A stretch of 64,000 bases of DNA from Pseudoxanthomonas kaohsiungensis (GTDB lineage: Bacteria; Pseudomonadota; Gammaproteobacteria; Xanthomonadales; Xanthomonadaceae), in assembly GCF_010211765.1 (NCBI RefSeq), contig NZ_PDWO01000001.1:1-64000 (forward strand). The letters are read 5' to 3'. Of the stretch, positions 37,921 through 62,424 are shown one piece after another. The translations under genes and the position numbers were made by a program. Position 1 is the first letter of the stretch; each line of letters begins with the position of its first letter. The notes below the pieces were generated by a model. The model worked only from the letters and a program-made list of their open reading frames with translations. It was not told the DNA's origin and ran no database searches.

Positions 37921-38142
37921 GTAGGAGCCCATCCTCATGGGCGACCGGGGCGTCGGACGTGCGATGGCGTCGCCTGTGCCGAGGGCGTCGGGTCGCCGAT
38001 GAATCGGCTCCTACAGGGCGGCCCGGTTCGGGCGCGGTTTCCCCACTTGTAGGAGCCCATCCTCATGGGCGACCGGGACGTCGGACGTGCGATGGCGTCG
38101 CCTGTGCCGAGGGCGCCGGGTCGCCGATAAATCGGCTCCTAC
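37921..38142. repeat. Two direct copies of a 94-bp family-B repeat
   Basis: Copies at 37921-38014 and 38049-38142 (period 128 bp) begin GTAGGAGCCCATCCTCATGG and end GGCTCCTAC, with a long identical interior. They belong to the same family as the elements inside icmF, but the arms differ slightly (CCCATCCTCATGGG left, CCGATGAATCGG right), so the stem is imperfect. They occupy the 439-bp gap between liuA and the leucine dehydrogenase gene, which has no coding capacity. Confidence 0.85.
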
Positions 38143-41798: not shown

Positions 41799-44700
41799 AT
41801 GAGCACGCCCGCCAGCCAGATCCCTCAGCCGCATCCCGACGCCACCCCGTTGCGCTTCGTCACCGCCGCCAGCCTGTTCGACGGCCACGACGCGGCGATC
41901 AACATCATGCGCCGGCTGATCCAGGCCCAGGGCGCCGAGGTCATCCACCTGGGCCACAACCGCAGCGTCGAGGACGTCGTGCGCGCCGCGCTGCAGGAAG
42001 ACGCCGACGCGATCGCGCTGTCCAGCTACCAGGGCGGCCACGTCGAGTACTTCAAGTACATGGTCGACATGCTCAAGGAGCACGGTGCCAGCCACATCCG
42101 CGTGTTCGGCGGCGGCGGCGGCACGATCACGCCGGAGGAGATCCGCGAGCTCGAAGCCTACGGCGTCGAACGCATCTACCACCCCAACGACGGCATGAAG
42201 ATGGGGCTGGTGGAGATGATCGAGGACGTCGTCGCCCGCGCCAGCGCCGCGCGCGAATCACGCGCCGCGCGCGTGGCGCTGACTGTAGGAGCCCATCTCA
42301 TGGGCGGCACGGGCAATGAAACCGCGAAGGCGTCGGGGGAGTCGTCCGCGCTGGCGAACGCCGGGGAATCCGGCGGTGTCGGGTCGCCCATGAGATGGGC
42401 TCCTACCGTGGATGAAATCACCATCGGCCGCGCGCTCAGCGCGATCGAGGACGGCGAACACACCGACGCCGACCTGGCCAAGCTGCGCAAGCACTGGCAG
42501 CTCGCCGCCGGCCGCACCCCGGTCATCGGCATCACCGGCACCGGCGGCGCCGGCAAGTCCTCGGTCACCGACGAACTGCTCAACCGCTTCCTCTCCAGCT
42601 TCCCGGCCATGCGGATTGCCGTGGTCTCGGTCGACCCGACCCGCCGCCGCAGCGGTGGCGCGCTGCTGGGCGACCGCATCCGCATGAACTCCTTGAGGTC
42701 CCATCGCGTCTACATGCGCTCGATGGCCACCCGCCGGCAGAACGTGGCCACCAACGCGGTGCTCAAGGACTGCGTGGCCTACCTCAAGTCGCTGGACTTC
42801 GACCTGGTGATCGTGGAGACCGCCGGCATCGGCCAGTCGGACTCGGAGATCGTCGACCTGGTCGACTTCCCGATGTACGTGATGACCTCCGACTACGGCG
42901 CGGCCAGCCAGCTCGAGAAGATCGACATGCTCGACTACGCCGAGCTGATCGTGCTCAACAAGTACGACCGCCGCGGCGCCGAAGACGCGTTGCGCGACGT
43001 GCGCAAGCAGTGGAAGCGCAACCGCGTGGCCTTCAACGTCAAGGACGAGGACATCCCGGTCTACCCGACCATCGCCAGCCAGTTCAACGACCCCGGCATC
43101 AGCTGGATGTTCGCCAACCTGTGCCGGCTGCTGCGGCAGAAGCTCGGCCTGTCCAACCGCGACGCCCCCCCTGTAGGAGCCCATCTCATGGGCGACACGG
43201 GCAATGGAGCGACGAAGCCGTCGGATACCCATGCCACGCCGCAGAACGCGGGCCAGGATGCGTCCGTCGGGTCGCCCATGAGATGGGCTCCTACGACGGC
43301 GGGGCGCTGCGACTTCCAGCCGCAGATCGACACCACGCTCAAGGAGCCGCGCGCCACCGTGCTGATCCCCGGCGCGCGCGTGCGCTACCTGGCCGAGATC
43401 GCCGAGCAAGGCCGGGCGATCAACCGCCGCATCGAGATGGAAGCGGAGACCGCCAGCCGCGCGCAGTCGTATTGGGAGTCGCTGCGCGACCTGGGCGACG
43501 AGCGCCTGCCCGAACCGCTGGGCCTGTATCCGGCCGATGCCTTGCTGCCAGCGAACCAGGGCAGCGGGGCAAGCCCCGCTCTACGCGGCGGCGCCTTGGC
43601 CGCCGATGCCGGCCCCGACCATGGGGGATCCCCTGTAGGAGCCCATCTCATGGGCGACACGGGCAATGGAACGGCGAAGGCGTCGGATGTGCCGGCTACG
43701 CTGGCGAACGCGGGGCAGGGCGAGGCCGTCGGGTCGCCCATGAGATGGGCTCCTACAGAACAGGACGCGCCGGACCGCTCGTTGCTCACCCTGCGCCAGC
43801 GCTACAACGACGCCGTGCAGTCGCTGTCCAGCGAATCCCTGCGCAACCTGCGCGAGTGGCCGCAGCGCCTGAAGTCCATCACCGACGAGTTCACCGAATA
43901 CCAGGTCCGCAACAAGGCCATCCGCGTCGAGAACTACCGCGAGTCGCTCAGCCACCAGAAGGTCCCCAAGATCGCCGCCCCCACCTACAAGTCCTGGGGC
44001 GAGCTGCTGACCTTCCTCGGCAAGGAGAACCTGCCGGGCAGCTACCCCTACACCGGCGGCGTCTACCCGTACCGCCGCACCGGCGAAGACCCGATCCGCA
44101 TGTTCGCCGGCGAGGGCACGCCCGAGCGCACCAACCGCCGCTTCCACTACCTGTCCGCCGGCCAGCCGGCCGCGCGCCTGTCCACCGCGTTCGACTCGGT
44201 CACCCTGTACGGCGAAGACCCGGCAAAGCGCCCGGACATCTACGGCAAGATCGGCAACTCCGGGGTCAACATCCCCACGCTGGACGACATGAAGAAGCTG
44301 TACTCCGGCTTCGACCTGTGCGCGCCGACCACCAGCGTGTCGATGACCATCAACGGCCCGGCGCCGATCATCCTGGCGATGTTCATGAACACCGCCATCG
44401 ACCAGCAGGTGGAGAAGTACCTCAAGGCCGACCCGCAGCGCTGGGCCGATGCGCAGAGGAAGATCGACGCGTTCTTCGAAGGCCGCGACGGGTCCAATAG
44501 AAGCCGGCCGCGCTACCACGGCGACCTGCCGCCCGGTAACGACGGCCTGGGCCTGGGCCTGCTCGGCGTCACCGGCGAGCAGCTGCTCGATGCCGACACC
44601 TATGCGGCGATCAAGGCCGAGACGCTCAAGACCGTGCGCGGCACCGTGCAGGCCGACATCCTCAAGGAAGACCAAGCCCAGAACACCTGCATCTTCAGCA

Positions 44701-45818
44701 CCGAGTTCGCCCTGCGGATGATGGGCGACATCCAGCAGTACTTCGTCGACCACCAGGTCCGCAATTTCTACTCGGTGTCCATCTCCGGCTACCACATCGC
44801 CGAGGCCGGGGCGAACCCGATCAGCCAGCTCGCCTTCACCCTGTCCAACGGCTTCACCATCGTCGAGTACTACCTGGCCCGCGGCATGCACATCGACGAC
44901 TTCGCGCCCAACCTGAGCTTCTTCTTCAGCAACGGCATGGACCCGGAGTACACCGTCATCGGCCGCGTCGCCCGCCGCATCTGGGCCCGCGCCATGCGCG
45001 AGCGCTACCAGGGCAACGAGCGCAGCCAGATGATGAAGTACCACATCCAGACCAGCGGCCGCTCACTGCACGCGCAGGAGATCCAGTTCAACGACATCCG
45101 CACCACGCTGCAGGCCCTGTACGCGCTGTTCGACAACTGCAACAGCCTGCACACCAACGCCTACGACGAAGCCATCACCACGCCCACCGAAGAGAGCGTG
45201 CGCCGCGCGGTGGCCATCCAGATGATCATCAACAAGGAGCTGGGGCTGAACTTCTGCGAGAACCCCTGGCAGGGCAGCTTCGCCGTGGAGTACCTGACCG
45301 ACCTGGTCGAAGAAGCCGTCTACAAGGAGTTCGAGGCCATCAGCGAACGCGGCGGCGTGCTCGGCGCCATGGACACCATGTACCAGCGCGGCAAGATCCA
45401 GGAAGAGTCCCTCTATTACGAACACAGGAAGCACGACGGCTCGCTGCCCCTGGTGGGCGTCAACACCTTCCTGCCCAAGGGACACGCCGGCGAAGTCGCC
45501 ACCGAGATCGAGCTGATCCGCTCCACCGAGGGCGAGAAGGCCCAGCAGATCGCGAACGTCGCCGGCTGGCAGGCCAACCGCAACCGCCTGGCCCCGGAAG
45601 GGGAGACCGCCACCGGCCATATCGCCGGGGCCGAGGAGTCAGGCAGCGGCCTGGCCGAGGCCGTTCACGACGGCCACGGCCTGGCGTATCTTCAGGACAC
45701 GGCGCGCAGGCGGGGGAACGTCTTCGCGGCGCTGGTGGAAGCGGTCAAGACCCACAGCCTCGGTCAGATCAGCCATGCGCTGTATGACGTGGGCGGGGAG
45801 TACCGAAGGAATATGTAA
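41799..45818 (+). CDS. icmF: Fused B12-dependent acyl-CoA mutase (isobutyryl-CoA mutase, IcmF) with in-frame repeat insertions
   Basis: IcmF joins the small and large mutase subunits and the MeaI chaperone GTPase in one chain, interconverting isobutyryl- and n-butyryl-CoA (or related pairs) with adenosylcobalamin. The 1339-residue product has a B12 domain ([15 protein letters not shown], ~20-160), MeaI with Walker [13 protein letters not shown] (~245), and a C-terminal mutase TIM barrel ([19 protein letters not shown] to the end). It is about 240 residues longer than characterised IcmF proteins (near 1,090). Three 41-residue segments (residues 163-203, 459-499, 613-653; VGAHLMG ... GSPMRWAPT) and a short REP-encoded [10 protein letters not shown] near 588 are repeat-derived. 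They fall in linkers between domains, so the enzyme may still work. Confidence 0.92.
42285..42406 (+). repeat. In-frame palindromic element 1 in icmF
   Basis: A 122-bp element with perfect 22-bp inverted arms (GTAGGAGCCCATCTCATGGG plus CG; 42285-42306 and 42385-42406), read in frame as 41 codons, between the B12 and GTPase domains. Its arm sequence is the same as in copies 2 and 3 and closely matches the intergenic repeats at 37.9 kb. Confidence 0.95.
43173..43294 (+). repeat. In-frame palindromic element 2 in icmF
   Basis: Second 122-bp copy with the same perfect 22-bp arms (43173-43194 and 43273-43294), again with GTA as the first codon. It lies in the linker between the MeaI GTPase part and the following [10 protein letters not shown] helix region. 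Confidence 0.95.
43561..43585 (+). repeat. In-frame REP palindrome in icmF
   Basis: A copy of the family-A REP (GGGGCAAGCCCCGCTCTACG) inside the reading frame, translated as SGASPALRG. The same sequence occurs in intergenic regions at 6.27, 36.2 and 62.2 kb. It lies 50 bp upstream of element 3, so this linker has been hit at least twice. Confidence 0.85.
43635..43756 (+). repeat. In-frame palindromic element 3 in icmF
   Basis: Third 122-bp copy, same orientation, same frame, perfect 22-bp arms (43635-43656 and 43735-43756). The interior is similar to copies 1 and 2 but diverged (several substitutions, no indels), which suggests that the insertions are old and length has been kept by selection on the frame. 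Confidence 0.95.
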
Positions 45819-62215: not shown

Positions 62216-62424
62216 GCTTGCCCGGCTGGCGGGGCGACGAGGGAAGCAGCGGGGCAAGCCCCGCTCTACGGGAGAAGGGCAGCGGGGCAAGCCCCGCTCT
62301 ACGGGGTGGATCGATGCGTCGTAGAGCCGGGCTTGCCCGGCTGGCGGGGCGACGGGAAGGGCAGCGGGGCAAGCCCCGCTCTACGAGGTGGCGAGAAGAG
62401 CAGCGGGGCAAGCCCCGCTCTACG
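62216..62424. repeat. Cluster of six REP palindromes
   Basis: Two copies of a composite unit: GTAGAGCCGGGCTTGCCCGG-CTGGCGGGGCGAC followed by two inverted GCAGCGGGGCAAGCCCCGCT-CTACG copies. All six belong to family A. They fill the gap between the DUF4344 gene and the convergent VOC gene, with no coding sequence. Confidence 0.9.

Follow-up and report, generated by a model that had tools for sequence, protein, structure and literature searches.

The window analysed here, a 64,000-nt stretch of Pseudoxanthomonas kaohsiungensis DNA, carries at 41799..45818 on the forward strand the icmF gene, which encodes in a single open frame a fused isobutyryl-CoA mutase/GTPase of 1339 aa. The protein scores 1602 bits against NCBIfam NF045497 (cut-off 1500) and contains the Pfam domains B12-binding, MeaB, and MM_CoA_mutase. 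Its top match in the PDB is the solved Cupriavidus IcmF, 4xc6. Intrinsic terminators and sigma-70 promoters were searched for between 41700 and 46000 and none was found. In the mutase domain, a stretch of ~61 residues (window 44433-44633, residues about 879-945) varies little in length across the majority of our icmF genes and is nearly absent from the Cupriavidus protein; the window copy is 5 residues longer.

Palindromic elements in icmF

Three elements of 122 nt apiece lie within the icmF frame, in one orientation (+) and each with a whole GTA as first codon. The first (42285..42406, residues 163-203) occupies linker L1, between the B12-binding and GTPase domains; the second (43173..43294, residues 459-499) occupies L2, after the GTPase domain; and the third (43635..43756, residues 613-653) occupies L3, before the mutase domain. 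On the numbering of 4xc6, these places fall between residues 178-196, 436-459, and 495-524, respectively. Each element consists of two inverted REPs with arms of 22-26 nt and a spacer of 74-78 nt, and the three carry identical 22-nt arms. The GTAG-headed REP, GTAGGAGCCCATCTCATGGGC, has the stem GCCCAT/ATGGGC and the loop CTC. In the window we counted six matches to the arm, for 0.01 expected (21 nt searched, up to 3 mismatches). The three icmF elements are GTAG-type REP doublets, or REPINs. Viewed for a target-site duplication of the kind left by DNA-transposase MITEs, the bases beside the filled sites, ACT/CGT, CCT/GAC, and CCT/AGA, show by eye no direct repeat. L3 also contains a solitary REP, GTAGAGCGGGGCTTGCCCCGCTG, which belongs to a second GTAG family, on the reverse strand at 43562..43585 (residues about 588-596), which is identical to one arm (62280-62303) of another REP pair.

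The first-pass annotation, made from the letters of this DNA, had described three 122-bp elements sharing orientation and phase, a fourth and unrelated REP palindrome, their location at the domain borders of a functional-looking icmF, and very stable hairpins in the transcript. All four points hold, the predicted RNA folds of the three doublets amounting to -83.9, -79.5, and -84.1 kcal/mol (z -7.8 to -8.8). It had also taken the extra base that completes the final Thr codon as a sign of selection or of a fixed insertion mechanism. This argument fails: any in-frame insertion needs that base, and the in-frame state proves neither, because out-of-frame insertions would simply be lost.

Against four relatives, the domains of IcmF have omega values of 0.215, 0.154, 0.267, and 0.095 and are under purifying selection, whereas the insert interiors (26 codons each) have values of 0.82-1.42 and evolve close to neutrality. 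An AlphaFold2 model of residues 1-700 (24 sequences, mean pLDDT 66.8) contains three long low-pLDDT stretches, 163-203, 455-501, and 588-657, which are the inserts, the last one including both the single REP and the third doublet. Besides these, it has seven short low-confidence stretches of 3-8 residues, and in its B12 and GTPase domains helices and strands are recognizable, with moderate confidence. Together, the constraint on the domains, the near-neutral interiors, and the low pLDDT of the inserts suggest that translation probably includes the inserts, as disordered linker, and that IcmF probably remains a working enzyme. We presume that the protein is made and functions. The genome being a draft of 85 contigs, the elements might be thought to come from misassembly, or the gene to be a pseudogene. 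We judge this very improbable in view of the intact 1339-aa frame, the low omega of the domains, and the like elements found in icmF of the single-contig genomes G011 and G006.

The REP family and the relationships of its copies

A genome search with the 126-nt element returned 185 matches (E up to 1), mostly to the arms, with scoring applied to 40 of 147 first-look candidates. Outside icmF, 36 stretches of the genome together with a portion of the window yielded at least 52 GTAGGAGC..GCTCCTAC doublets of 91-143 nt. In the 52 listed doublets, the CCCAT-stem arms have 4-nt loops and the other arms a different stem. Two doublets of the family are found in the window, on the + strand at 37921..38014 and 38049..38142, neither in a coding-like frame. 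The first-pass annotation had called these the same repeats as those of icmF, which is right for the family and wrong for the sequence, since one of their arms has a 4-nt loop and the other arm another stem. We tested 48 REP clusters, a subset of all matches in which 8 are a single short motif match. Only the three icmF clusters are spanned by a frame that is coding-like on both sides; the other 45 lie outside any coding-like frame, so the family is mostly extragenic. A RAYT gene (NF047646, 127.5 bits, cut-off 80) is encoded on the reverse strand of contig C33 (locus L205, 223-699) and has same-family doublets on both sides. These doublets and the flanked RAYT gene identify the icmF elements as REPINs of a genome with its own REPtron. 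One of the doublets adjoining the RAYT gene (L205:1-960, contig C33) has in common with the icmF interiors their start, GCGACACGGGC.

Between the three icmF copies, the arms show 0-1 differences in 50 sites and the interiors diverge by 24-42%. Either they are old insertions whose arms have stayed alike, or they come from several differing donors, each inserting with its arms intact. A genome-wide search for the arm (3.76 Mb, up to 2 mismatches), a check put forward in the first-pass annotation, gave 7 matches, of which 6 are in icmF and one is on contig C8. All six icmF arms have the 3-nt loop CTC, which is seen in none of the 52 listed doublets and in one further arm of the genome, outside icmF. 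The three copies also have in common a 122-nt interior form that few other copies match over its length. These features would be explained if a single REPIN had entered from outside and had then spread, through local transposition or gene conversion, into the two remaining linkers. One repeat kind is likewise present in two linkers of the icmF genes of L051, G011, and G015. Moreover, the icmF interiors are closer to each other and to a related element in L3 of G002, a genome of the same genus, than to the compared copies elsewhere, and at least two of them may therefore stem from spreading inside icmF. However, the window interiors diverge from each other as far as from this G002 copy, which differs from the window L3 copy by 24% in the interior and 24% in the arms. 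Such divergence means that the spreading is old, or that the copies come from a varied donor pool. We give internal spreading a serious chance, if somewhat less than an even one; it bears on where the three icmF copies came from and agrees with insertion by a RAYT, the reading preferred below.

In Pseudoxanthomonas koreensis (G004, locus L102), L1 contains half a related element, and the genome has one full-length element match, at 72%, outside icmF. The related copies in G002 and G004 have decayed with the frame kept. In line with the first-pass annotation, the 41-residue segments encoded by the elements were absent from homologues outside the genus among the matches listed and the best 5 candidates per genome.

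Palindromic repeats in the icmF linkers of related bacteria

Our sample comprised at least 80 icmF loci from the genome collection, 15 same-genus regions, and the window, and the counted set 89 distinct icmF genes, mostly from Lysobacterales with some others. One partial gene (L115), one broken frame (G014), one gene at a contig end (G016), and the duplicates G004, G013, G012, and G008 were left out. L1, L2, and L3 have a common baseline near 20, 20, and 28 residues and reach up to 69, 94, and 122. Scoring ungapped inverted repeats (score of at least 14), we identified 48 linker palindromes: 9 in L1, 16 in L2, and 23 in L3 (1.27, 1.98, and 1.66 per kb). The remaining icmF coding DNA, 295 kb, has 12 (0.04 per kb), each with its first arm in L1 and its second in a further linker. 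Of the 89 genes, 35 carry one or more linker palindromes and 54 carry none by this test.

These linkers contain GTAG REPs of many stems, a GGTCAG type (GGGGTCAG..CTGACCCC), a CTCTCCC..GGGAGAG type, a TCACCCC/GATTCC type, and heptamer arrays. Forward matches to CTCTCCCGCNNGCGGGAGAGG number 76, 98, 49, 20, and 7 in the genomes of L047, L085, L098, L056, and L101; there are none in the genomes of L054 and L068 and none in the controls. On a tree of the conserved domains, the 9, 16, and 23 palindromes of L1, L2, and L3 require 9, 14, and 21 Fitch changes (44 in sum), against means of 8.9, 15.7, and 22.2 for shuffled labels. A scatter like that of shuffled labels indicates repeated gain or very fast turnover. 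The automatic kind labels on the tree are wrong for at least L054 L2 and L101 L3, both of GTAG type; the L1 of L060 includes two N, and the palindrome of L119, a Burkholderiales MAG, may not be a REP. Unrelated palindromic repeats have entered the same icmF linkers many times in related bacteria, and in view of these many entries the linkers look like a recurrent landing and retention zone. The first-pass annotation had raised the prospect of homologues outside the clade with the same segments at the same places: the segments differ, and the places do carry palindromic repeats.

Linker L3 of a Balneolaceae MAG (L124) is lengthened in a non-palindromic way, by tandem EGSHEP-like peptide repeats. 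A common peptide pattern resembling [ED]RR..[DE]RR[KR]..F.W fills L3 of L053, L057, L058, L061, L063, L064, and L099.

Twelve icmF genes (L086, L090, L067, L098, L077, L122, L116, L118, L091, L052, L062, and G006) have heptamer arms in L1 and the complement 117-145 nt further on, in the linker before the P-loop, with a conserved coding stretch between. The heptamer varies by species (GGGAATC, GGGAACA, GGGACCG, GGGACTC, GTGATTC), the arms matching within a gene. Pairing was evaluated on 12 genes in which both arms are periodic, a set partly different from the former: arms score a mean of 20.75 with their own partner vs 10.5 with those of other genes, the own partner ranks first in 8 of the 12, and none of 20000 permutations scored as high. 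GGGAMYN heptamer arrays are dispersed in 10 of the 12 heptamer genomes, and none of the GGGAMYN form was found in L091 and L048. The window icmF is without a heptamer arm pair.

Heptamer arms that stay complementary in other species while their sequence changes (12 genes) would be expected if the repeats had a selected function, the mRNA hairpins slowing the ribosome for domain-by-domain folding or the extra peptide being useful. So would the placement of the window elements at domain borders, the stability of their predicted hairpins, and arms nearly identical beside divergent interiors. Yet the same test leaves 54 of the 89 genes without any linker palindrome, the related copies in G002 and G004 have decayed in an intact frame, and the insert interiors evolve near neutrality. 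Identical arms are equally expected if only copies with intact arms move from a pool. Selection for such a function thus appears unlikely to us.

Proposed insertion mechanism, possible target preference, and known systems

The icmF elements are best explained, and in our opinion with good probability, by RAYT-type insertion combined with a filter for open frames and with linkers that are permissive and perhaps preferred. REPINs, as mobile non-autonomous repeats, would travel in the form of single-stranded hairpins with the help of a RAYT (Y1-type) transposase, presumably the one encoded at L205 for the window copies, and would have inserted into the icmF coding sequence at interdomain linkers. 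Copies breaking the frame or bringing a stop would have been lost and in-frame, stop-free copies would have survived, since purifying selection acts on the fused enzyme, whose linkers can nevertheless accommodate additional disordered peptide. Unrelated repeat families would have repeated such entry in icmF of related bacteria. A passage of PMC8266576 reports that the TnpA-REP of S. maltophilia cuts single-stranded REP DNA at CT, as tested on the 3' side. CT directly precedes GTAG in the three window elements, but in only 5 of the 15 GTAG palindromes of the whole set. All 15 begin on a whole GTA or GTG codon, another open phase being available to 7 of them (log10 P -2.28), and the five GGTCAG elements are in one phase (log10 P -1.2). 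This sharing of phase is suggestive only.

Flexible linkers are also present in pyruvate dehydrogenase E2, InfB, and FtsK. Together with PolA, these proteins provided control genes from the same genus (64 genes, 141 kb), whose frames were guessed at contig ends, with one PolA frame of only 44 aa and one PolA locus left out. They contain no repeat elements; their three inverted repeats are GGC runs and all lie in FtsK loci, while same-genus icmF has 13 inverted repeats in 52 kb, in 7 of 14 genes. A compact hairpin in one InfB locus and a REP pair near ftsK of G011 (L287) lie outside the control frames. As a rough background, 308 flank genes include 7 inverted repeats, the caller having missed much coding DNA (331 kb coding vs 319 kb not). 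Linker DNA compared by BLAST with the DNA flanking the loci gave matches for 44 of the 89 genes vs 31 for control chunks, a weak contrast. Family counts by regular expression were rejected for GTAG as unusable (46 vs 29 expected in random chunks); for GGTCAG (20 vs 4) they are only fair, and our argument is not based on them.

Three of the 7 inverted repeats of flank genes lie in one frame of L053 (682-3435, reverse strand; 917 aa, provisional start codon). It encodes a Trans_reg_C domain and holds three different palindromic repeats, and is possibly a second multiply invaded gene.

In eight genomes, 18 of 138 GGTCAG-type arms (GGGGTCAG, exact pattern) are inside icmF: 2/2 in G010, 1/1 in L051, 2/4 in L063, 2/4 in L101, 2/6 in L055, 2/42 in G011, 4/17 in G015, and 3/62 in G006. 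These counts are biased, since the genomes were selected for an icmF holding the element and the exact pattern misses diverged arms; in L051, icmF holds two elements and the pattern finds one arm. In G010 and L051, all exact matches of the genome are in icmF. Uniform insertion would favor genomes with many copies, yet five of the eight have at most 6 arms. This is the main ground on which the data suggest an insertion preference on top of tolerance.

Tolerance might nonetheless suffice, insertion being random and the icmF linkers belonging to the rare coding locations that take up inserts harmlessly. In agreement with this, the inserts are of low confidence in the model, probably disordered, and near-neutral, and a passage of PMC3733652 suggests that genic REPs may sit in flexible linkers or loops. 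On the other hand, E2, InfB, and FtsK, in spite of their linkers, are devoid of repeat-type palindromes in the frames analysed from the same genus, and the genomes with at most 6 pattern matches have one element in icmF, though they were chosen for it. Tolerance by itself has, in our estimate, close to an even chance, and a bias of insertion going beyond it would be an addition to the preferred RAYT-based explanation. A far stronger proposal would be that unrelated hairpin repeats actively prefer the icmF linkers of Lysobacterales, that a resident palindrome attracts more of them, that the hairpins pace translation, and that arms stay complementary by following the current repeat dialect of the genome; we regard this whole as improbable.

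In-frame intragenic GTAG REPs are described in passages of Di Nocera et al. 2013 (PMC3733652) for several genera, Xanthomonas and Stenotrophomonas included. Some genes there hold two REP dimers, and in recB of X. campestris and X. oryzae roughly the same site is occupied by different REPs. Events of this kind are therefore already known, contrary to the first-pass annotation, to which no in-frame case in this family was known. The main text of this article mentions no mutase, and in searches of CC-licensed PMC papers we found no description of an icmF linker hotspot. What is apparently new, as we found no account of it, is that the linkers of a single gene have gathered many unrelated repeat kinds across many genera.

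icmF provides a series of natural insertions, apparently independent, at the same few positions of one protein, alongside relatives lacking them, and makes testable both the target choice of RAYT-type repeats and the conversion of mobile DNA into protein linker. It also serves as a warning: where predicted proteins have linkers like VGAHLMG...RWAPT or VGAASAAT...AAEAAPT, these peptides represent mobile DNA in translated form. Like other systems of a GTAG REPIN and its RAYT (REPtron), that of this genome has inverted GTAG pairs, many copies, and a RAYT gene flanked by repeats of the family; it differs by the icmF copies, in frame in one gene, whereas the 45 other tested clusters are not coding-like. 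Rickettsia palindromic elements (RPE) are spread over many genes of one genus, whereas in icmF many repeat kinds are found in one gene. Compared by description, from a summary in PMC3733652, RPEs resemble the icmF elements as palindromes in frame within protein genes. GGGAATC heptamer repeats and their convergent pairs were published for Xanthomonas (passages of PMC4692102); in some icmF genes the same repeat, convergent pairs included, occupies L1 and the linker that follows it. The published copies are described there as over-represented outside coding DNA, whereas the icmF pair flanks a conserved coding stretch. Close parallels in kind are the intragenic REPs, of GTAG and CGTC type, described by Di Nocera et al. 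2013, which, in the passages concerned (PMC3733652), are in frame, are sometimes two per gene, and are suggested to lie in flexible linkers; icmF differs from them in having been invaded at three to four linkers by unrelated repeat kinds in many genera.
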